Below are positions 13,326-47,347 of a stretch of 64,000 bases of DNA, piece after piece. A program made the position numbers and the translations under genes. How positions within the stretch are numbered: position 1 is the stretch's first letter; each line of letters starts with the position of its first letter. This stretch comes from Lysobacterales bacterium (lineage in GTDB: Bacteria > Pseudomonadota > Gammaproteobacteria > Xanthomonadales > BPKI01), in assembly GCA_026005055.1 (NCBI GenBank), contig BPKI01000001.1, forward strand, positions 992,001 through 1,056,000, given 5' to 3'. The notes under the pieces were generated by a model. The model had not been told where the DNA came from. It made no database searches and saw only the letters and a list, made by a program, of their open reading frames with translations.

Positions 13326-13339
13326 TTGACCTCGATCAA
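13326..13339 (-). promoter_or_regulatory. FNR/Anr-type box upstream of hemN
   Basis: The site TTGACCTCGATCAA matches the FNR consensus TTGAT-N4-ATCAA at 9 of 10 positions and is centred about 70 bases upstream of the hemN ATG. It overlaps the stop codon of the upstream kinase gene (stop at 13336-13338). hemN is a known FNR/Anr target in Pseudomonas and relatives, which fits. Confidence 0.75.
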
Positions 13340-16041
13340 GGTGCAATCGAGGAGAGGGCTCGTTTTTCCCGAAGCCTCATCATCCGCTCGCGCCAGCGAG
13401 CCGCCTTCTCCGGCTGCATCAGGGCGGTAAAGGCTGCTGCCGCGCTTTCACACAGCTTTTGCCCGAATGCGGCCAAGCCCGAGGCCTCGGCTTCGGCGAA
13501 GAGCCGCTCGAGCGCCTCCTCGCCGAGATTCGGCTCCTTGCCGCGAATTTGCGCGAGCGCGGAGATTAGGCGGAGATCGAGCACGCGCGGCTCCTGTTCT
13601 CCCCAAAGACGCTTGGCGCGCTCGAGCACGGGCTCGAGATCTCGCGCCAGCAGGCGATCATCGCCGCGCGCATAGGCCAACCACAGAGCTTCGACTTCCA
13701 GTTTCAGCCGCTCGGGATGATCGGCGGCCATCTCGGCTTGAACGCGGGGCAGCAAGGCTTGCATGTGCCTTTCGGCTTCCTGAAGGCGCTCTCGAACCCG
13801 AAGGGCGGCGATCCACTCGCGCTCTGCGCGAAGCGCCGTGGGGCTGAGCGCGGGATAGGCCGAGCTCGCTGCGTGCCGCGCGCGCGCGATGACCGTCAAG
13901 GCCTCCTCCATCCGCCCGAGGCGTTCGAGTGTGTTCGCCCAGTTGAACATTTCCTCGAGGGTCTCCGGCGCGTCTTGGCCGAAGATGCGCTCGGCCAGCG
14001 CCACGGCGCGCTCGCGCTCGCGCGCCGCACTCTCGACCTCGCCCTCGAGGCTCAAGAGGTAAGCGCGCCGGTGGGCGAGCCAGAAATGCGCCTCCTCCTC
14101 AGGAGGAAAGCGCGCGAGCGCCCGCTCGATGCGCGCAAGCAGCACCTTCGCCTCGGTGAGCCGCGCCTGCTCGATCATCAGCGATGCGAGATTGTCGAGG
14201 GCGGACACGGTCGCGGGATGCTCAGGGCCGAGCGTGTGCTCGAGGATGGCGATGGCCTGACGATAAGCGTCCTCGGCCTTGGCGAGATTCCCCGCTTCCC
14301 AGGCATAAAAAGCGGCGTCCACGAGCGCACCGGCCGCGAGCGGGTGTCGTTCGCCGAGGCGCGCGCGCGCCGAGGCGAGCGCCGTTTCCGCCTCGCTTAA
14401 GGCCTTCGCCGCATCGCCTGTGCGGTAGGCGAGGCGCGCTCGGGAGCGAGACAGCGCGATCTCCTCGTGCGGTTCGAGCGGTCTTTCGACGGGTAAGCGA
14501 AGCCAGTTCGCGGCCTCCTCGAAGCGCGCGAGGTCGGCAGCGGCCTCCGCAGCCGAGAGGTGAGCCGGGACGATGATCGGATCGTTTGGAACGAGCTTCG
14601 CCAAGCGCGGCAGATCCGTGCGCAAGCGCGCGAGACCTTCCTCGCGGCGGCCTTCCAAGATCGAACTTCGGCCCTCGCGCACGGCGAGGCGCAGTCTCTT
14701 GCCTTCATCGCCTCCTGCGAGGGCTTCCGCTTTCTTGAGTGCTTGCCGCTGCTGCTCGTTCTCGCCGCGGGTGCCGTGAACCTCGGCGAGCAACAGCAGC
14801 AAATCGAAGCGGCTTTCTGAGTCGAGCGCTTGGTCCGCCTCGATTTCGGCGGCGAGGGTGCGGAGGAGCTCGCCGACGGTGCGCTCCCTGGCTTGGGTTT
14901 CGTAGGGGTTTCCTTCGATGATCGCCCGCTTGAGGATGTTCAGGCTCGCGCGGGCGCGGGCCGATTCCAGCTCGGCCAGCGCGCGTGCCTCGCTTTCCCG
15001 TTTGGCGAAGAGCAGGACGCCTGCGATCCCGCTCAGCACCGCAAGCACCGTCATCACGCTGAGCGCGCTCAGCAAGGGATTGCGCTGGATGAACCGCCGG
15101 CTGCGATAGAGCAGGGAGGGCGGCTTGGCGAGCACCGGTCGGGCTTCGAGAAATCTTTCGAGATCCTCGGCGAAGGCGCGGACCGAGGGATACCTGCGCT
15201 CGCGATCCTTGGCGAGCGCTTTGCTGAAGATCGCCTCGAGATCGCCCTTGAGCCGGCGGTCGAAGTGGCGCAGGGGGCGGGCGTCGGACTCGCGGATGAC
15301 GGTGATCGCCGAGGAGTGATCCGCGGGTAGCTCGTAGGGCAGTCGGCCGGTGATGAGCTCGTAGCCGATCAGGGCGAGGGAATAGAGATCGCTTCGGGTA
15401 TCGAGGTCGTCGCGGTCGGAATAGGTCTGCTCCGGGCTCATGTAGCGCAAGGTGCCGATGACGAAGCCAGCCTGCGTGAGCCTCGCGGAGCGTTCGGGAT
15501 CCTCGCTGGTCGCTTTGAGCCGAGCGATGCCGAAGTCGAGGATCTTGGGTTTTCCCTCGGCCGTGACCAGGATGTTGTCGGGCTTGAGATCGCGATGGAG
15601 CACGCCGCGTTGATGCGCATGCTCGAGCGCGGCGCAGAGCTCGATCAGAAGCTTTAGCTTCGCGCGCAGCGATTTCCCTTGTGCCCAACTGAGCAACGGG
15701 TCCCCTTCGACGTACTCGAGGACGAGGAAGGGCTCGCCTGTCTCGGGGATCTGATCAAGGCCGTAAAGCCGCGCGATGCCCTCGTGGGAAAGGCGCGCTA
15801 AAGCCCTTGCTTCGATCGCGAGCCGCTCCGCCTGCCAGCCGGCCGCGCCTGCGCGCAGGAACTTGAGGGCCAGCGAACGCGGCGGCTCGCTTTCGTGGGC
15901 AAGCCAGACCGAGCCCATGCCGCCCTCGCCGAGCGGGCGAATGAGCATGTAGCGACCGATGAAGTCCCCGGGCCTGAAGACCCGACCGAAAGACCAGGGC
16001 GCTGCCGAGAAACCTGAGGAAGGGCTGTGCTCGCGAGTCAC
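13336..16041 (-). CDS. Receptor-like Ser/Thr kinase with TPR-type C-terminal region (kinase 1)
   Basis: Hanks-type kinase of about 901 residues. Kinase domain about 30-300: Gly loop GEGGMGSVW, invariant K60 (LALKFL), catalytic HRDLKPDN (149-156), DFG at 169-171, activation segment ending MSPEQ. A transmembrane helix lies at 324-346. The rest is a long helical region with TPR-like units ([20 protein letters not shown] and similar), which topology places in the periplasm. GTG 16041 is chosen because AGGGAGG lies 8 bases upstream; GTG 16044 or ATG 16074 are alternatives. The frame further upstream is antisense to pgk. It is a close paralog of kinase 3. Substrates are unknown. Confidence 0.9.
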
Positions 16042-16165
16042 CACCGTTCCCTCCCTGGTGGTGCTTGAGATCATCGGCAGGCCGCCGTCGCGGTGCAAGA
16101 GCGCAGCCTTGCGGGGTGCGAAGCGAGGGCTTCTAATGGCGGGCGGCGAAACGAGGGATGTCTCG

Positions 16166-17362
16166 ATGAACGTTCTCCGAATGAGCGAGGTGCCGCTGGC
16201 GGGGCGGCGGGTTCTCATCCGCGAGGATTTCAACGTGCCCATCGAGGATGGGCGCATTCGCTCGGCGGAGCGCCTGCGCGCGGCCCTGCCGACGATCGAG
16301 CAGGCGCTCGCTGCGGGGGCGAGCGTCCTCCTCATGTCGCACCTCGGGCGGCCGGAGGAGGGGCGTTTCGACCCGGGCTTGTCGCTCGCACCGGTGGCGG
16401 CCTGGCTCGCAGAGGCGCTTGCCCGCCCCGTGCCACTGCTGCCCGATCTCGAGCAGGCCAAGGCGCCCGCGCCGGGCGGTGTGGCCTTGCTCGAAAACGT
16501 GCGCTTCAACCGCGGTGAGAAGAAGGACGATCCGGCGCTCGCCCGCCGCTATGCCGCGCTCTGCGATGTCTTCGTGATGGATGCCTTCGCCACGGCGCAT
16601 CGCGCCGAGGCCTCGACCCATGGGGTCATCCGCTTCGCGCCGATCGCCTGCGCCGGCCCGCTGCTCGTCGCCGAGCTTCAGGCTCTCGAGCGCGCGCTCA
16701 CCCATCCGGCGAGGCCGCTGATCGCGGTGGTGGGCGGGGCCAAGGTGTCGACCAAGCTGGCGCTGCTCGAGCACCTCTTGGAGCGCGTGGACCGGCTGAT
16801 CGTGGGCGGGGGCATCGCCAACACCTTCCTCGCGGCGGCGGGTGCACCGGTGGGCCGTTCGCTCTGCGAAGCGGCGCTCATCCCCACGGCGGCCCGCATC
16901 CTCGAGCGCGCTCGCGCGCTGGGCCGACCGATGCCGCTGCCCGTGGACGTGGTGGTGGCGCGGGACGCATCGCCGCAGGCCGAGGTGAAGACCGTGCCGG
17001 TGAAGGATGTGGGTGCGGATGAGATGATCCTCGACATCGGCCCGCAGACGGCCGCTCACTACGCGGAGACGGTCCGCTCAGCGGGCACGGTGGTCTGGAA
17101 CGGCCCGCTCGGTCTGTTCGAACATCCGGCGTTCGCCGCGGGGACGCGGCGGGTGGCCGAAGCCATCGCCACGAGCCCGGCCTTCAGTCTGGCCGGCGGC
17201 GGCGATACGGTGGCGGCGATCGAAGCCTTTGGGCTCGATGGGCGTTTCGGCTACGTCTCGACCGGCGGCGGCGCTTTCCTCGAATACCTCGAGGGGAAAA
17301 CCCTGCCGGCGGTGGCGGCTCTGGCCGAACGCGCGCGGGAGCATCCGAGCGTCCGACCGTGA
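16166..17362 (+). CDS. pgk: Phosphoglycerate kinase
   Basis: Glycolytic and gluconeogenic enzyme interconverting 1,3-bisphosphoglycerate and 3-phosphoglycerate with ADP/ATP. 398 residues, the normal length. Motifs: [17 protein letters not shown] at the substrate-binding N-domain, [38 protein letters not shown], and the nucleotide loop [16 protein letters not shown] near the C-terminus. ATG 16166 is preferred because ACGAGGG lies 8 bases upstream and it gives the family-like start [15 protein letters not shown]. It is divergent from kinase 1 across about 124 bases, and followed 13 bases later by the ECF sigma gene, so glycolysis and the signalling genes may share a transcript. Confidence 0.95.
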
Positions 17363-17375
17363 CGATAGAGTGGCC

Positions 17376-17948
17376 ATGGCGGGGGAGCACCGCGCAGGCG
17401 ATGAGATCACGGCGTGGCTCGAGCGCTGGGCGAGCGGCGATCGCCGTGCGCTCGATCGCCTGATTCCGGCCCTCTATGGGGAGCTTCGGAGGATGGCCCA
17501 TGCCCTGATGGGGCAGGCGGCGGGCGTGACCCTGCCGCCGACGGCCCTGGTCCATGAGCTGTGGATCAAGTTGAGCCAAGGGCGGCCCTCGACGCCTCGC
17601 GATCGCAGCCATTTCCTCAAGATCGCGGCGCGAGCGATGCGCCAGTTGTTGGTGGATTTGGCGCGGGAACGGCAGGCGGCCAAACGCGGCGGCGGCGTGG
17701 AGCATCTCCCGCTTGATCCCGAGTTGCCGCTCGCCTTGCCCGACGGAACCGATCTTTTGGCCCTGGATCAGGCGCTCGCCCGGCTGGCCGCCGAGGACGA
17801 GCTCGCCGCCCAGACGGTCGAGCTTCGCTGCTTCGTGGGCTTGACCATCGAGGAGACCGCCGCGGTTCAGGCTCGCCATCCCTCCGCGGTGAATCGCGAT
17901 TTCGCCTTCGCGAGCGCTTACCTCAAGGCCTTGTTGTCCGAGCGGTGA
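17376..17948 (+). CDS. ECF43-type RNA polymerase sigma factor
   Basis: Sigma-70 family factor of 190 residues with region 2 (GELRRMAHALM to HELWIKL) and region 4 (VELRCFVGLTIEETAAV, then ARHPSAVNRDFAFASAYL). The pattern TLPPTALVHE and the closing RDFAFASAYL are those of the ECF43 group, whose members in Vibrio and Xanthomonas (EcfP) lack the usual acidic residues in region 2.2 and are switched on by threonine phosphorylation from a Hanks kinase. Thr56 in PPTALVHE is the likely equivalent. No anti-sigma factor is nearby. Its stop overlaps the start of kinase 2 (GTGA), so the two are translationally coupled. Confidence 0.88.
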   Translation: MAGEHRAGDEITAWLERWASGDRRALDRLIPALYGELRRMAHALMGQAAGVTLPPTALVHELWIKLSQGRPSTPRDRSHFLKIAARAMRQLLVDLARERQAAKRGGGVEHLPLDPELPLALPDGTDLLALDQALARLAAEDELAAQTVELRCFVGLTIEETAAVQARHPSAVNRDFAFASAYLKALLSER

Positions 17949-20248
17949 AGCTCAAGGCGCTGTTTCTCGAACTGAGGCAGCGCTCCGAGGCGGAGCGCGA
18001 AGAAGCACTCGCCCTCTTAGCCGAGGAGGACCCCGAGGCGGCGAAGCGGCTTCGCGCGCTGCTCGCGGCCGACGATCCTCGGTTCCTGACGCCGCTTTGT
18101 CCCGATGCGCCCGCTTGCTTCGGCGGGCGTTATCGCGTGCTGAGCGAGCTCGGCCGCGGTGGGATGGGCGTGGTCTATCTCGCCGAGCATCGCGGCGAGG
18201 ATTTCTGCAAGCGCGTCGCGATCAAGTGCCTGCCATGGCGGAACGATCCCGCCGCGGAAGCGCGGCTTGCGCGCGAGCGGCGCATCCTCGCCCGCTTGCG
18301 CCATCCGCGCATCGCCCGCTTGCTCGATGGCGGCAGCGAGAACGGTCGGCCGTGGCTGGCGATGGAGTACGTCGAGGGGATTCCCTTCGATCGCGCGCTC
18401 GCCGGCAAGACCCTGCGCGATCGGCTGAAGCTGTGGCTCAAGGTCGCCGAAGCGGTCGCCTATGCCCACGCCGCGCTCGTCGTCCATCGCGACCTCAAGC
18501 CGAGCAACGTCTTGGTGGATGAAGCGGGGGAGCCTCATCTCCTAGACTTCGGTGTCGCCGGCTTGCTCGAAAGCGGCGGCGATCTCACCGGCTGGCATGG
18601 CCTTCCCTTCACCCCGCGCTACGCGAGCCCCGAGCAGATCCGCGGCGAGCCGGCGAGCACGGCCGCGGATGTGTTCGCCCTGGGGGTGCTCCTTTACGAG
18701 GCGGTGGCGGATGCCTGGCCCTTCGGCGAGGAACGGGATCCGGCTCTGCAGATGCGGGCGGTGCTCAGCGATTCGCTGAAGCCCTTCCCCAAGGGAGGAT
18801 CGAAAGACCTCTTCGCCATCTGCGAGCGCGCGCTGGCCAAGGACCCCAAGGCGCGCTATCCCTCGGTCGAATCCCTGATCGCCGATGTCGAGGCCTTCCT
18901 CGCCGGGCGCCCGGTTGCGGCGCGGCGCGCAGGACTTCGCTATCGCCTGGGCAAGTGGCTGATCCGTCACCGGCTTGCCGCTTCGCTCGTGCTTCTCCTC
19001 GCTGCCATCGGCGCCGGCGCGGTGCTCTTCCATCTTCGCAGCCTCGGCGTTCAGCTCGAGCGGGTGCAGGCGGAGCGCGCGAAGGCCGAAGCGCTCGCCG
19101 GCTTCTTCGTCTCGCTCTTCGAGGAAGTCGATCCCGCCGAGATCGCATCCGGCGTCACCGCACGCGAGTTGCTCGCGCGCAGCGCAAAACGGCTGCTCGA
19201 AGACGCCGAGGGCGAGTTCCTGCCGTCCGCGCGCGCCGAGCTCTTGCAGGCGGTGGGGGCGATCTATGCGCGCTTGGACCTCAATGCCGAGGCCGAGCGC
19301 GTGTTCCGCGAGGCGGTGAGGCTGCGCCGGATGGAGCAGGAGGAGCCAGAGGGCTTGGCGCTCGCGCTCAACGGGCTCGCGGTCATGCTTCAGCGCCGGG
19401 GGGCGTATCGGGAGGCGGAGGCGCTGGTTGCGGAGGCCATCGCCTTGCGCCGGGCGATCGGCGATACGGAAAGCTTGCGTTTCGCCAACCTGCTGAACTC
19501 GCAGGCGATCCTGCTCGATCTCCTCGGCGAGCGCGAGCGGGCGAAGGAGAGCTTCGCCCAGGCCGAAGAGCGCTATCGCCGACTGTGGCCCGCGGGGCGG
19601 CGCGAGTTCGCGGGGCTTCTCGCCAATCGGGCGACGGAGGCGATGCACGCTGGCGACTTCGCGGCCTGCCTGGCGCGGGTCGAGGAGGCGCTTTCGGTGC
19701 TCGCGGAGGAGCACGATCCGCTCAGGCAGATCGCCCTGCTCGAACGCCGCGGGCGGTGCCGCATGGCGCTCGGCGAGCTCAAGGGCGCTGGGGATGATCT
19801 CGCCAAGGCCGTGGCTCTCGCCGAGAAGAGCCTTCCCCCCGTGCACCGCCGCTACGCCAGCGCGGCTGTGGCCGAGGCGCATTGGGCGGTGAGCGCGGGC
19901 GAGGCGAATCGCGCGCTCGCGCGGCTGCGAAGCCTCGCCCTCAGCGCCTTGCCCTCAGACCTCGCCGATGAAGCGGCGCTGGCGCGCGCCGCTGCCTTGC
20001 TCGCGGATGGGCGCTTCGAGGCGATCGAGGCGGTACTCGCCGAACGCGCGCCCCGCTTCGCCGACGAGCATGCCGAAGCGCGGGCCTTGCTCGCGCTCGC
20101 TCGCTTCTGTGCCAGCGGGGGAAATGAGGCGCGGGAAGCGGCGGAGAGGGCGCTTTCGGACTGGGAGACGCCGGTCTTCAACGCCTGGCGGCGAGAGCGG
20201 CTGAAGGCCGCCCTCGCCGCTTGCCGAGGCTCGAATCAACCGAACTGA
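17945..20248 (+). CDS. Receptor-like Ser/Thr kinase coupled to the ECF sigma factor (kinase 2)
   Basis: 767 residues. A short helical N-terminus (1-45, DUF-like leader rich in Leu/Glu) precedes the kinase domain at about 62-320: GRGGMGVVY, K94 in VAIK, HRDLKPSN (181-188), DFG 201-203, YASPEQ. All catalytic residues are present. A transmembrane segment at about 344-363 is followed by a TPR-type helical C-terminal half. The GTG start overlaps the sigma gene stop by four bases, as in EcfP/PknT-type pairs where the kinase phosphorylates its sigma factor. Its 3' end overlaps the convergent secreted-protein gene by 13 bases. The signal sensed by the outer half is unknown. Confidence 0.9.
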   Translation: MKLKALFLELRQRSEAEREEALALLAEEDPEAAKRLRALLAADDPRFLTPLCPDAPACFGGRYRVLSELGRGGMGVVYLAEHRGEDFCKRVAIKCLPWRNDPAAEARLARERRILARLRHPRIARLLDGGSENGRPWLAMEYVEGIPFDRALAGKTLRDRLKLWLKVAEAVAYAHAALVVHRDLKPSNVLVDEAGEPHLLDFGVAGLLESGGDLTGWHGLPFTPRYASPEQIRGEPASTAADVFALGVLLYEAVADAWPFGEERDPALQMRAVLSDSLKPFPKGGSKDLFAICERALAKDPKARYPSVESLIADVEAFLAGRPVAARRAGLRYRLGKWLIRHRLAASLVLLLAAIGAGAVLFHLRSLGVQLERVQAERAKAEALAGFFVSLFEEVDPAEIASGVTARELLARSAKRLLEDAEGEFLPSARAELLQAVGAIYARLDLNAEAERVFREAVRLRRMEQEEPEGLALALNGLAVMLQRRGAYREAEALVAEAIALRRAIGDTESLRFANLLNSQAILLDLLGERERAKESFAQAEERYRRLWPAGRREFAGLLANRATEAMHAGDFAACLARVEEALSVLAEEHDPLRQIALLERRGRCRMALGELKGAGDDLAKAVALAEKSLPPVHRRYASAAVAEAHWAVSAGEANRALARLRSLALSALPSDLADEAALARAAALLADGRFEAIEAVLAERAPRFADEHAEARALLALARFCASGGNEAREAAERALSDWETPVFNAWRRERLKAALAACRGSNQPN

Positions 20249-21282
20249 CCGGCGCGGCGGACGCTGAAACGGCCGACGCCGACCGTCAGGCCATCGACCA
20301 CCACCTCGACCCGGTAACGCCCGACCGGGATCAGACGGTTGAACTGAAGCAGCGAGCGCAGGGTGTCGTAACTCGCATCCCACACCATGTCGAACTCGCG
20401 GATGAGCTGCTCGCCGCCGGCTTCCCCGCCTTCATAGATCCAACGCACCCGGACCTGGGCCCCAGGGCGGGCGGAAAGCGGCATCAAAGCCCACATGCCG
20501 GAGTCGGTGCTCTTGAACTCGCTCTGGGCGATGCCCGGGGAGCCATCGCCGCGGATCTCATGAAGGCTCACCTGGCGAAGATTCGCCGAGCTGCCCGGTG
20601 CCGGGGAACGCGCGGCGTAGCGCGCAGCGTCCTCGCGCGCCTCGGCGCCGAGGCGATCGAGTTCGGCGAGGAGCTCGTCTTGAGTGGCGTTCAGGCGGCG
20701 GATCGATTCGGAGGCGCTGCGCATGGCGGAAGCGGCCTCGGCGAGCGCGGGTGCGGAGCGGTCGCCTGCGCCGCGGATGAGAGCCGGGTCGGCTTCGGCG
20801 AGGCGACCATCGAGCAGGGTCGTCCAGCGCCGCCGAAGCTCGGGGCTCATCTGCGGCGAGTTGACGGCATAGGCCACGCGCAAGGCGCCGTTGGGCCGGC
20901 GGATGATGCGGCCGATCTCATGCTGCGAGGCATGACCGTAACTGGCGTTGCAGCCGGCGCTGCGGAACTCGTAGAGCACATCATCGGGCCGCTCGTGGTG
21001 GAACTCGAACTGGCTCTGCGGGCAGTTGGCGAGCAGGCGGTCGCGGATCTGATTCGCGATCACGCGCGGCAGATCCGAGCCCTTGAGCTCCATGAAAGTG
21101 AGCATCTCGTACCAGCTCGCCACGCTTTCCCCAGGGCGGAGCAAGATGGTCGTGCTCACCCGCTCGTTGTCGCTCTGCTCGGCGATCACCCATTCGTCGG
21201 GGTCGCCTTGCACCATGAGATTGCCCGAAGGGCTGGGCCCGATCTGGGCCCAGAGGAGGAGGGCGAGGATCATCGTGTTCAT
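20236..21282 (-). CDS. Secreted protein of unknown function
   Basis: 348 residues, no family recognised. The N-terminus MNTMILALLLWAQIGPSPSG looks like a short signal peptide. Residues about 35-130 are a mixed region with two Cys (NCPQSQFEF and SAGCNASYG). About 175-225 is an Ala/Glu/Arg-rich helix likely to form a coiled coil. The last 110 residues look like an all-beta sandwich with YDTLRSLLQFNRLIPVGRY and VEVVVDGLTVGVGRFSVR. GGGAGA lies 7 bases ahead of the ATG. It sits between kinases 2 and 3, so a periplasmic partner or ligand of one of them is possible, but this is only positional. Confidence 0.8.
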   Translation of the reverse strand: MNTMILALLLWAQIGPSPSGNLMVQGDPDEWVIAEQSDNERVSTTILLRPGESVASWYEMLTFMELKGSDLPRVIANQIRDRLLANCPQSQFEFHHERPDDVLYEFRSAGCNASYGHASQHEIGRIIRRPNGALRVAYAVNSPQMSPELRRRWTTLLDGRLAEADPALIRGAGDRSAPALAEAASAMRSASESIRRLNATQDELLAELDRLGAEAREDAARYAARSPAPGSSANLRQVSLHEIRGDGSPGIAQSEFKSTDSGMWALMPLSARPGAQVRVRWIYEGGEAGGEQLIREFDMVWDASYDTLRSLLQFNRLIPVGRYRVEVVVDGLTVGVGRFSVRRAGQFG

Positions 21283-21380: not shown

Positions 21381-24203
21381 CTAGGGGGCTTCCCCCCGGA
21401 GCGCCCGCGCGCTTCGCTGCCAGCGAGCCGCCTCGGCGCTTCGTCCCTGCGCCTCGCTGAGCTCGGCGAGACTCTCCGCCACCCACGCGCGCCACTCGCG
21501 GCTCGCCTCGGCCTGCTCCAGGGTCTTCCACGCGCGGTCGAGGTGGCTTCGGGCTTCCCCCCAGCGACGAAGCCCCATCAGACTACGTGCGTGCCTCAGC
21601 GGTGCGAGCATCGCGACTGGATGACGGTCGCCGAGCACGGTCTCGGCGCGCTCGAGGAGCGCTGCGCTGATCGAAAGCGCCTCTTCGAAGCGCCCCGCCC
21701 TCTGCAAGGCGCCGGCGTATTGATAGAGGTTCATCAGAGTGCGCTCGTGGTCCTGGCCGAAGCGCTGCTCGACCCGCGGGCGGAGCTCCTCGAAGATGGC
21801 GATGGATTCCTCGAGTCGCCCGATGTCGCGCAGAAAGGCCGCATATTCGCCCGTCACCACGAGCGCCTCCGGATGATCGGGTCCATACCGTCGGCGCGTG
21901 GCCTTCATCAGTCTCGCGAACCACTCCGCCGCTTCCTCGTTGCGGTGGGCGGCGAGAAGGATGTTGGCGTGGTTGAGCATGCTTCGGATCGAGTCCTCGT
22001 GTTCATCGGGCTGTTCGGCAAGCGCCAACTCGAGCGACCTTTGGGAGTACCTCGCTGCCTCCTCGAGATTCCCCTGCACGTAGGCGATGGTGGCGGCCGT
22101 GCTCGACACCAGGCCGATCAGACGATCGCGAGGCGGCAATCGATCGAGCAGGGGGATGAGCGCGCGCACCCGCGCCTCCGCGCTGGCGAGCTCGCCTTGC
22201 TCGAGTTCCTGTGCGGCGAGGGAATTGAGGACGCGGATGGTGACCGGGTGCGCCGGACCCAGCCGTTCGCGCATCTGCTCGGCCAGGCCCTCGAGGAGCT
22301 CGGCAGCCCGGCGGCGCTCGCCGGCGCGCGCGTGGAGCGCGGCGAGGTTCTCGACGGCGAGCAGGGTCGGCATGGCCTCGGGGCCGAAGTAGGCTCGGGA
22401 GCGTTCGAGCTGCTGCGTGCGTAGCGCCAGCGCCTCGGCGAAATCGCCTTCCCGGATAGCCAAGGATGCGCGCAGGTTGTCGAGTTCCACGGCCAACTCG
22501 CGACCCGCCCGATCCCTGGGCGCTCCGAGGCGGGTGACCAGATCGGCGAGCTCCTCGCGCAGGCCCGCGGTCTGATCGAGGTCGAGCCGGAGCTTGACCA
22601 TCGCCCGGCGCGCATCGAGCAAGGCCGGATCGTCGGGAGGGAGCCTCCGCATCATCTCTCGGACCACGGCCGAGAGTTCCTCCTCCGCCGCAGGAAGATC
22701 GCCGAGGATGGCGACCGCTTGGGCGCGTTCGGAGCGTGCCGTCAGGATTCGCGGATCGGCCGCACCGAGGACGCCCGTCGCCCGCGCGAGGGCGAGATCG
22801 AACTCGCGCATGGCTTCGCTCCACTGCGCGAGGCTGAGCCACACGTTGCCGAGCAGGATACGCAGTTCGACCTCGATTTCCGGCGTGTCGGCGTAGGCTT
22901 CCTCGATCATGCGAGAGGCGGCGCTGAGCGCCTCTCGCACCGTCACGTGGGCGGAGCCGGCCAGGGACGGATTCGCTTGCGAGAGTACGCCGCGAACGAA
23001 ATCGAGGTGCGCGTTCGCCCGGCGACTGGCTTCCTCCGCGGCGAGGCGGGCGCGCTGCTCGCGCAGGGCGAAGGCGAAGACGGCCGCGACGCTGAGCAGG
23101 AGGGTCAGCAACGCGGCGGCGATGGCGGTGCTGGCCAGCGGATTGCGCTCGGTGAACTTGCGTAGGCGGTAGCCGATCGAGGCCGGCCGCGCGGCGATCG
23201 GCTCGCGCGCGAGGAAACGCTCGAGGTCGTCGGCAAAGGCGCCCGCGCTCGAATAGCGGCGTTCCTTGTCCTTGGCCAGCGCCTTGGCGAGGATCGTCGA
23301 GAGGTCGCGGGGCGCCTTCGCCAAGAAACGTTCGAGCGGTGCCGGCGGCTGCTCGCGGATGGTGCGCACGATCCCGAACTGGTCTCGAGGCAGCTCGTAG
23401 GGCAGGCGACCGGTCAGCATTTCGAAGCCGAGCAGCCCGAGCGCATACACGTCGCTGCGTGTGTCCACCTCGTCGCGGTCGGTGCGCGTCTGCTCGGGGC
23501 TCATGTAGGCGAGCGTCCCGACCATGAAGCCGGCGTGCGTGAGCTTCGAGTCGGGAGCAGGGGCACCCTCATCGGAGAGCACGCGGGCGACGCCGAAATC
23601 GAGGATCTTGGGTAGCCCCTCAGGGGTGACGAGGATGTTGGCGGGTTTCAGGTCGCGATGGATGACGCCACAGCGGTGGGCGTGCTCGACTGCGCGGGCG
23701 ATGGCGGCAAGCAGTCGGACTCGGTCCGGAAGCGGCTTCGATTGGACCGCATCGAGCAGGGGAAGCCCCGCGACGTACTCCATGATCAGATAGGGCATCG
23801 GGCCGTCTGCGGTATCGGTCACACCCGCGCTGAAGATCTGGGCGATGCCTGGATGGCGCAGTCGGGCGAGTGCCCGGATCTCGAGATCGAAGCGTGCCCG
23901 CAGGTCGGGTGAGACGAAGCCTCCGGCGATGAGCTTGATCGCGACCTCGCGTTCCGGATTCTCCTGTCGAGCGAGGAACACCTTGCCCATGCCGCCCTGA
24001 CCCAGCAGCCGGATCAGGATGCAATCGGCAATGCGCGCACCCGGTTCCGCGACCCGCCGCCCCGCCAAGTCCGTTTCTCCGCGCCGCTCGTCGAGGCGTC
24101 CTGCCGAGTCCGGGTTCGCGCATGCGGAACCATCGGCAATCGAGGTTTGTGCAGCCGTGCCATCAGGCGGGCCGGGAGGCGGGCTTGGAGGGGAAGGAAC
24201 CAT
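21381..24203 (-). CDS. Receptor-like Ser/Thr kinase with TPR-type C-terminal region (kinase 3)
   Basis: 940 residues. A Pro/Ser-rich 55-residue N-terminus precedes the kinase domain (about 60-335): GQGGMGKVF, K90 (VAIK), HRDLKPAN (182-189), DFG 202-204, YMSPEQ. A transmembrane helix follows at about 357-380. The C-terminal 560 residues are helical TPR-like repeats, for example AVENLAALHARAGERRRAAE and LYQYAGALQRAGRFEEALSI. GGGGAG lies 8 bases before the ATG. Kinase 1 shares long stretches around [18 protein letters not shown] and [17 protein letters not shown], so the two are duplicates. Read from the opposite strand to clpB; the 5' ends are 134 bases apart. Confidence 0.92.
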   Translation of the reverse strand: MVPSPPSPPPGPPDGTAAQTSIADGSACANPDSAGRLDERRGETDLAGRRVAEPGARIADCILIRLLGQGGMGKVFLARQENPEREVAIKLIAGGFVSPDLRARFDLEIRALARLRHPGIAQIFSAGVTDTADGPMPYLIMEYVAGLPLLDAVQSKPLPDRVRLLAAIARAVEHAHRCGVIHRDLKPANILVTPEGLPKILDFGVARVLSDEGAPAPDSKLTHAGFMVGTLAYMSPEQTRTDRDEVDTRSDVYALGLLGFEMLTGRLPYELPRDQFGIVRTIREQPPAPLERFLAKAPRDLSTILAKALAKDKERRYSSAGAFADDLERFLAREPIAARPASIGYRLRKFTERNPLASTAIAAALLTLLLSVAAVFAFALREQRARLAAEEASRRANAHLDFVRGVLSQANPSLAGSAHVTVREALSAASRMIEEAYADTPEIEVELRILLGNVWLSLAQWSEAMREFDLALARATGVLGAADPRILTARSERAQAVAILGDLPAAEEELSAVVREMMRRLPPDDPALLDARRAMVKLRLDLDQTAGLREELADLVTRLGAPRDRAGRELAVELDNLRASLAIREGDFAEALALRTQQLERSRAYFGPEAMPTLLAVENLAALHARAGERRRAAELLEGLAEQMRERLGPAHPVTIRVLNSLAAQELEQGELASAEARVRALIPLLDRLPPRDRLIGLVSSTAATIAYVQGNLEEAARYSQRSLELALAEQPDEHEDSIRSMLNHANILLAAHRNEEAAEWFARLMKATRRRYGPDHPEALVVTGEYAAFLRDIGRLEESIAIFEELRPRVEQRFGQDHERTLMNLYQYAGALQRAGRFEEALSISAALLERAETVLGDRHPVAMLAPLRHARSLMGLRRWGEARSHLDRAWKTLEQAEASREWRAWVAESLAELSEAQGRSAEAARWQRSARALRGEAP

Positions 24204-46907: not shown

Positions 46908-47257
46908 GAAGCCGGCCGGACGGTCGCTCCGCGCTCTGCGCGGGGAGGAAAGTCCGGGCTCCACAGGGCAGGGTGCCAGGTAACGCCTGGGCGGCGTGAG
47001 CCGACGGAAAGTGCCACAGAAAACAAACCGCCGATGGCCCGCAGGGGCTCAGGCAAGGGTGAAAAGGTGCGGTAAGAGCGCACCGCGCGGGTGGCAACAC
47101 ACCGCGGCACGGTAAACCCCACCCGGAGCAAGACCGAATAGGGACGCGATGGCGTGGCCCGCGCCGCGTCCGGGTAGGTCGCTCGAGCCCTGCGGTGACG
47201 CAGGGCCCAGATGGATGACCGTCACGAACAGAACCCGGCTTACGAGCCGGCTTCCAC
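46908..47257 (+). ncRNA. rnpB: RNase P RNA (type A)
   Basis: Catalytic RNA that matures the 5' ends of tRNAs. Helix P1 is GAAGCCGGC (46908-46916) paired with GCCGGCTTC (47246-47254). Conserved blocks are read in order: GAGGAAAGTCCGGGCTCCAC, CAGGGTGCCAGGTAACGCCT, AACAAACCGCCGATGGCCCG, GGTAAGAGCGCACCGCG, CACGGTAAACCCCACC, and AGAACCCGGCTTA (3' side of the P4/J region). Length about 350, as in other gammaproteobacteria. Exact ends are estimated from P1. Confidence 0.96.
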
Positions 47258-47347
47258 CCTGGTCCTTCGGCGCCGTGCCGGGGTCTCGACGCGCCGACCT
47301 TTCCGCTCAGGAGAAGCGACCGTGCTTGCCGCGTCGGGCGGCACGCT

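Follow-up and report, generated by a model that had tools for sequence, protein, structure and literature searches.

An ECF43-like sigma factor and the receptor-type Ser/Thr kinase encoded directly behind it very probably work, by analogy, through the Thr-phosphorylation switch known from Vibrio and Xanthomonas. The genes were found in a 64,000 nucleotide stretch of DNA (the window). With good confidence, the pair is considered to be a self-contained transmembrane switch, in which the kinase would activate the sigma factor by phosphorylation of Thr56. The model is supported by the family and motif of the sigma factor, the EcfP and EcfK precedents, the PknS-like layout of the kinase, the pairing of the two genes and the co-variation of their trees. 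As read from the sequence, the genes are coupled, a Thr replaces the acidic motif, the kinase is intact and sigma factor and kinase co-vary; phosphorylation of Thr56 by the kinase and the topology are predicted, and the signal and the regulon are presumed parts of the model. The sigma factor would be made together with the kinase and would be idle without the acidic DxxD patch of region 2.2 for the beta-prime clamp of RNA polymerase. A signal at the periplasmic TPR half would cause the kinase to autophosphorylate and to phosphorylate Thr56, and this phosphate would supply the missing negative charge, allowing the sigma factor to bind RNA polymerase and transcribe a regulon. The switch could be reset by a phosphatase; one PP2C gene is located elsewhere in the genome (G000:C1:1545533), adjoining another kinase. 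The new element here is the N-terminal module of the kinase.

The sigma factor gene (17376-17948, + strand) extends from an ATG at 17376 to a TGA at 17946-17948 and encodes 190 amino acids, comprising sigma2, linker and sigma4 without any extension. The protein matched TIGR02999 with 170.8 bits (cut-off 126; E 2.8e-50) and PF07638 with 128.2 bits (E 4.3e-37). Both the family and the restriction to sigma2 and sigma4 are as in ECF43, and the designation "ECF43-like" refers to TIGR02999 and PF07638, which are broader than ECF43 as against ECF59, ECF61, ECF62, ECF217 and ECF283. The description in the earlier note of an ECF43-like sigma factor coupled to a receptor-like Ser/Thr kinase agrees with the TIGR02999 score and the overlapping kinase reading frame. 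A phmmer search of the PDB with the sigma factor gave no close homologue. The AlphaFold2 model, based on an alignment of just five sequences, had a mean pLDDT of 81.6, and its best Foldseek matches were ECF sigma factors at E values of only 0.01-0.1, weakly backing an ECF fold for the model. Used as a single query against the genome contigs, the sigma protein found one planctomycete locus only.

To place region 2.2, the sigma factor was aligned with 45 members of its family, drawn from four genomes, and with the genome's own two canonical ECF factors. The motif PPTA (residues 54-57; 17535-17546, +) was placed on EAED of the RpoE-like sigma factor of the genome (L003) and on EALD of the other one (L004), and the HE following PPTA was placed on QE of L003. 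An additional row with the E. coli RpoE sequence gave the same placement of PPTA; the conclusion is independent of that row. None of the four residues of PPTA is acidic, in keeping with ECF43, whose region 2.2 lacks the acidic DAED motif. Two earlier claims are borne out by this alignment, namely that Thr56 lies in region 2.2 and that a Thr stands in place of acidic residues in a sigma factor free of a DAED-type motif.

PPTA stands where EcfP has STTA, EcfK has QATE and the ECF43 consensus is QTTA. In EcfP, the second Thr of STTA is phosphorylated (PMC8999054). The consensus QTTA and the EcfK motif QATE with T51 were reported together with the presence of Thr at the third motif position in 88% of ECF43 (PMC13147305). 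Because PPTA aligns with EAED and with the published motifs STTA, QTTA and QATE, Thr56 (codon 17541-17543), the predicted phospho-switch residue, is by alignment at the phospho-Thr position known from EcfP and EcfK. Thr56 was invariant in 31 of 31 homologues (alignment A1), and a Thr was observed at this third motif position in 41 of the 45 family sigma factors of the four genomes, again as in ECF43. The remaining four carry R or V and are still kinase-linked, so a Thr is not obligatory for the sigma-kinase arrangement. Thr52 was as invariant as Thr56 in alignment A1 and could also be relevant to the switch. In the AlphaFold2 model, Thr56 is located in the first turn of a helix spanning residues 55-67.

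The kinase gene (17945-20248, +) encodes a receptor-type Hanks Ser/Thr kinase of 767 amino acids (PF00069), with the catalytic motifs GRGGMG, VAIK, HRDLKPSN, DFG and TPRYASPE intact. Its start codon is the GTG at 17945, within the GTGA (17945-17948, +) common to the sigma factor stop, an arrangement indicative of translational coupling. An N-terminal three-helix module (residues 1-44; 18076 being its last nucleotide from 17945, +), detected with an HMM at E 1.3e-4 in a leave-one-genome-out search, is a candidate sigma-docking part. It is followed by the kinase domain (residues 63-306; 18131-18862, +; Pkinase PF00069, E 1.9e-43), whose nearest solved structures were StkP, PknB, PknA and PknS 9eed. 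Only one strong hydrophobic segment was observed in the kinase, the predicted transmembrane helix at residues 344-362 (18974-19030, +), which had the highest hydropathy window (2.51). The predicted topology places residues 363-767 (19031-20245, +) in the periplasm as a TPR-like sensor half. TPR_12 matched residues 472-545 at E 8.9e-7 with 29.5 bits, just below the Pfam cut-off of 30.1, and the TPR-type periplasmic half claimed earlier is thus retained on a marginal match behind the predicted transmembrane helix.

This layout of N-terminal helical segment, kinase domain, one transmembrane helix and periplasmic TPR half, with the TPR match being marginal here, is shared with PknS of the Xanthomonas citri EcfK-PknS system (ECF43; PMC13147305, 9eed), and the sigma factor and kinase genes are linked in both. 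The N-terminal extension is 83 amino acids long in PknS and about 60 in the window kinase. EcfP-PknT of Vibrio parahaemolyticus (ECF43; PMC8999054, PMC8103513) likewise consists of an ECF factor without DAED and a linked Ser/Thr kinase, with no anti-sigma factor. EcfP has STTA and the window sigma factor PPTA, with Thr at the same place of region 2.2, a likeness drawn from the published motifs. Both systems had been cited in the earlier note, which named the Vibrio pair correctly; the Xanthomonas sigma factor, given there as EcfP, is EcfK (PMC13147305). The Vibrio regulon is polymyxin resistance, whereas PknS and EcfK control a T6SS. A search of the window's genome for the T6SS sheath protein VipA/TssB gave no match, and the X. 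citri output is therefore unlikely as the regulon here. The switch is known from few organisms, and the pair adds a compact case to it, from a genome of 2.44 Mb in which two such sigma factors and no T6SS sheath gene were found.

Recurrence of the pair was studied in the window's genome (a single contig of 2.44 Mb) and in three relatives from the same order, each likewise on a single contig. A same-strand kinase gene was present immediately downstream of 35 of the 48 family sigma factors in these four genomes. The overlap of the sigma factor stop with the kinase start by GTGA, stated in the earlier note and confirmed in the sequence, is of a common type, as an exact NTGA overlap was found in 18 of the 35 coupled pairs. 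The window's genome has exactly two sigma factors of the TIGR02999 family above cut-off, each directly followed by a kinase. The second pair (G000:C1:2035492, L036 7493-10686) shares family, gene overlap, N-terminal module and TPR with the window pair and has the motif QTTA; it differs in a sigma factor 38% identical to that of the window and in a position close behind a penicillin-acylase-like gene instead of pgk. Tree distances of sigma factors and kinase domains were correlated with r = 0.44 over 39 pairs, compared to 0.22 in the best of 5000 within-genome partner shuffles. When the six pairs without the N-terminal module were left out, the correlation was 0.39 versus 0.29 in shuffles. The sigma-kinase arrangement was also found in Planctomycetes (L035, L128 and L129, the latter two assigned by similarity only), in Pseudoalteromonas (L132) and in Eleftheria (L133). 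The Pseudoalteromonas xiamenensis replicon carries two near-identical tandem sigma-kinase pairs (L132 5962-12477), upstream of which lie response regulator and sensor genes. In Eleftheria terrae (L133 4932-9717), two kinases follow one sigma factor, and the N-terminal module is present in the second kinase only.

All 91 genes with a Pkinase domain in the four genomes were searched for the module, using a profile of the region preceding the kinase domain; for each genome, the profile was trained on the remaining ones. Of the coupled kinases 29 of 35 carried the module, of the near ones 10 of 13 and of the unlinked ones 5 of 43. It was also found in sigma-coupled kinases of other phyla outside the training set, including Planctomycetes. 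No Pfam family was found for the module. Against the PDB, the only significant match of the profile was residues 6-95 of the X. citri construct 9eed (E 7.5e-14), which points to homology with the N-terminal part of PknS; the construct's name and its length of 364 aa suggest that 9eed is PknS. According to the authors of the PknS study, the N-terminal extension of PknS is conserved in Xanthomonadaceae, was disordered in the crystal and may have a function (PMC13147305). In the window kinase the module was modelled as three helices (residues 3-11, 15-28 and 30-42). The module is absent from six coupled kinases, which group in a single clade, as do their partner sigma factors (SH-aLRT 92). These six (G030 L107, L108, L115, L119 and L121, and G057 L118) have a short motif in common, [FL][EK]PG.AL...L...LL.

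The module could dock the sigma factor. Coupled kinases, however, fall almost into a single clade, so that common descent by itself produces an association of module and coupling and explains it equally well. An independent-pairs test of module against coupling was far from significant, with too few contrasts, and co-divergence of sigma factor and module beyond that of the kinase domain was weak and not significant (p 0.06-0.08). It is tentatively proposed, as a possibility below even chance, that the module of about 45 residues is a domain dedicated to docking, and possibly to holding, the sigma factor. Such a domain would be a mark of sigma-directed kinases in Proteobacteria as well as Planctomycetes, and one sub-clade would use [FL][EK]PG.AL...L...LL instead. 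If true, a docking module would account for the separation of the pairs in genomes that have some 20 to 35 such sigma factors. The module is a concrete and deletable candidate for the choice by a kinase of its own sigma factor in genomes with dozens of pairs. A rather unlikely extension is that the kinase holds the sigma factor as well as activating it, the module binding the unphosphorylated protein at the membrane like an anti-sigma factor until phosphorylation releases it. The enrichment of the module in coupled over unlinked kinases, its occurrence across phyla and in PknS, and the pairing of the six kinases without it to a single sigma clade would fit such a role, but the near-monophyly of the coupled kinases suffices as an explanation, and neither the independent-pairs test nor the co-divergence argues for more.

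Other alternatives to the single Thr56 switch were compared with the sequence of the sigma factor and its surroundings. In X. citri, EcfK carries phosphate on T51 and on T106 in the linker, and either site is sufficient (PMC13147305). The T51A variant alone is still functional (PMC13147305), and a Thr of the Thr56 type is therefore not the sole switch in every member. A corresponding two-site switch, with phosphorylation of Thr56 and of the sigma2-sigma4 linker and either one being enough, appears quite improbable for the window pair. EcfK combines QATE with T106 as a second functional phosphosite, whereas the window sigma factor combines PPTA with Pro112 and Asp114 in the linker sequence LPLDP (residues 111-115; 17706-17720, +). 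Pro112 and Asp114 correspond to T106 and S108 of EcfK in a register taken from a family alignment that did not contain EcfK; in this register the T106 position holds no phosphorylatable residue and the S108 position is already acidic. The site is mostly T, S, D or E across the family alignment, in the context V-[TSDE]-L-[SDE], where the window sigma factor has L-P-L-D. Residues 79-124 contain no Ser or Thr; Thr125, further along the linker, could be counted in favor of a second site. With Pro112 and Asp114 in the linker, the window sigma factor therefore resembles the single-site EcfP of Vibrio more than the Xanthomonas case. Thr56 is the lead candidate, as judged from these residues, for a single-site, EcfP-like switch, and a single candidate phosphosite without a linker site makes the pair a clean test case for the one-site model.

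Control of the sigma factor by expression level, with a kinase that is merely co-transcribed and does not act on it, is given a very small probability. The upstream neighbor is pgk (PF00162; region 16166-17375), separated from the sigma factor start by a gap of 13 bp, and a scan of 15900-20700 for sigma-70-type promoters found none, so expression of the pair may be constitutive and joined to that of a housekeeping gene. The signalling sigma factor thus appears to share a transcript with a glycolytic gene. Against control by expression stand the pairing conserved across genomes and phyla, the co-varying trees, the loss of the acidic patch and the direct precedents (PMC13147305), and constitutive co-expression fits post-translational control better. 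Among the loci fetched, pgk adjoined a sigma-kinase pair only in the window's genome, and this linkage is therefore treated as incidental. No anti-sigma gene was seen beside the sigma factor, the neighbors being pgk and a convergent protein that matched no Pfam family. Neither of the two resembles an anti-sigma factor, in line with the earlier claim, and an adjoining Hanks-type kinase gene with no anti-sigma gene in the context is as in ECF43.

Two more TPR-type Hanks kinases are encoded on either side of the pair, at 13336-16509 (-) and 21381-24203 (-). The former reading frame is over-long, with its true start probably near 16100. The kinase domain of each is the nearest relative of that of the other (SH-aLRT 96), and the two branch close to the base of the clade of sigma-coupled kinases. 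This relationship, and their position within 11 kb of the pair, would be compatible with the sigma factor being a shared node for three TPR kinases, also fed by those at 13336-~16100 (-) and 21381-24203 (-). That reading is highly improbable, since the N-terminal module is absent from both flanking kinases and both lie on the other strand. The Thr56 switch operated by the coupled kinase is preferred. Directly behind the kinase, the convergent reading frame at 20236-21282 (-) encodes a protein of 348 amino acids with an N-terminal hydrophobic stretch. Further downstream, a class A RNase P RNA was found at 46908-47258 (+) (RF00010, 322 bits).
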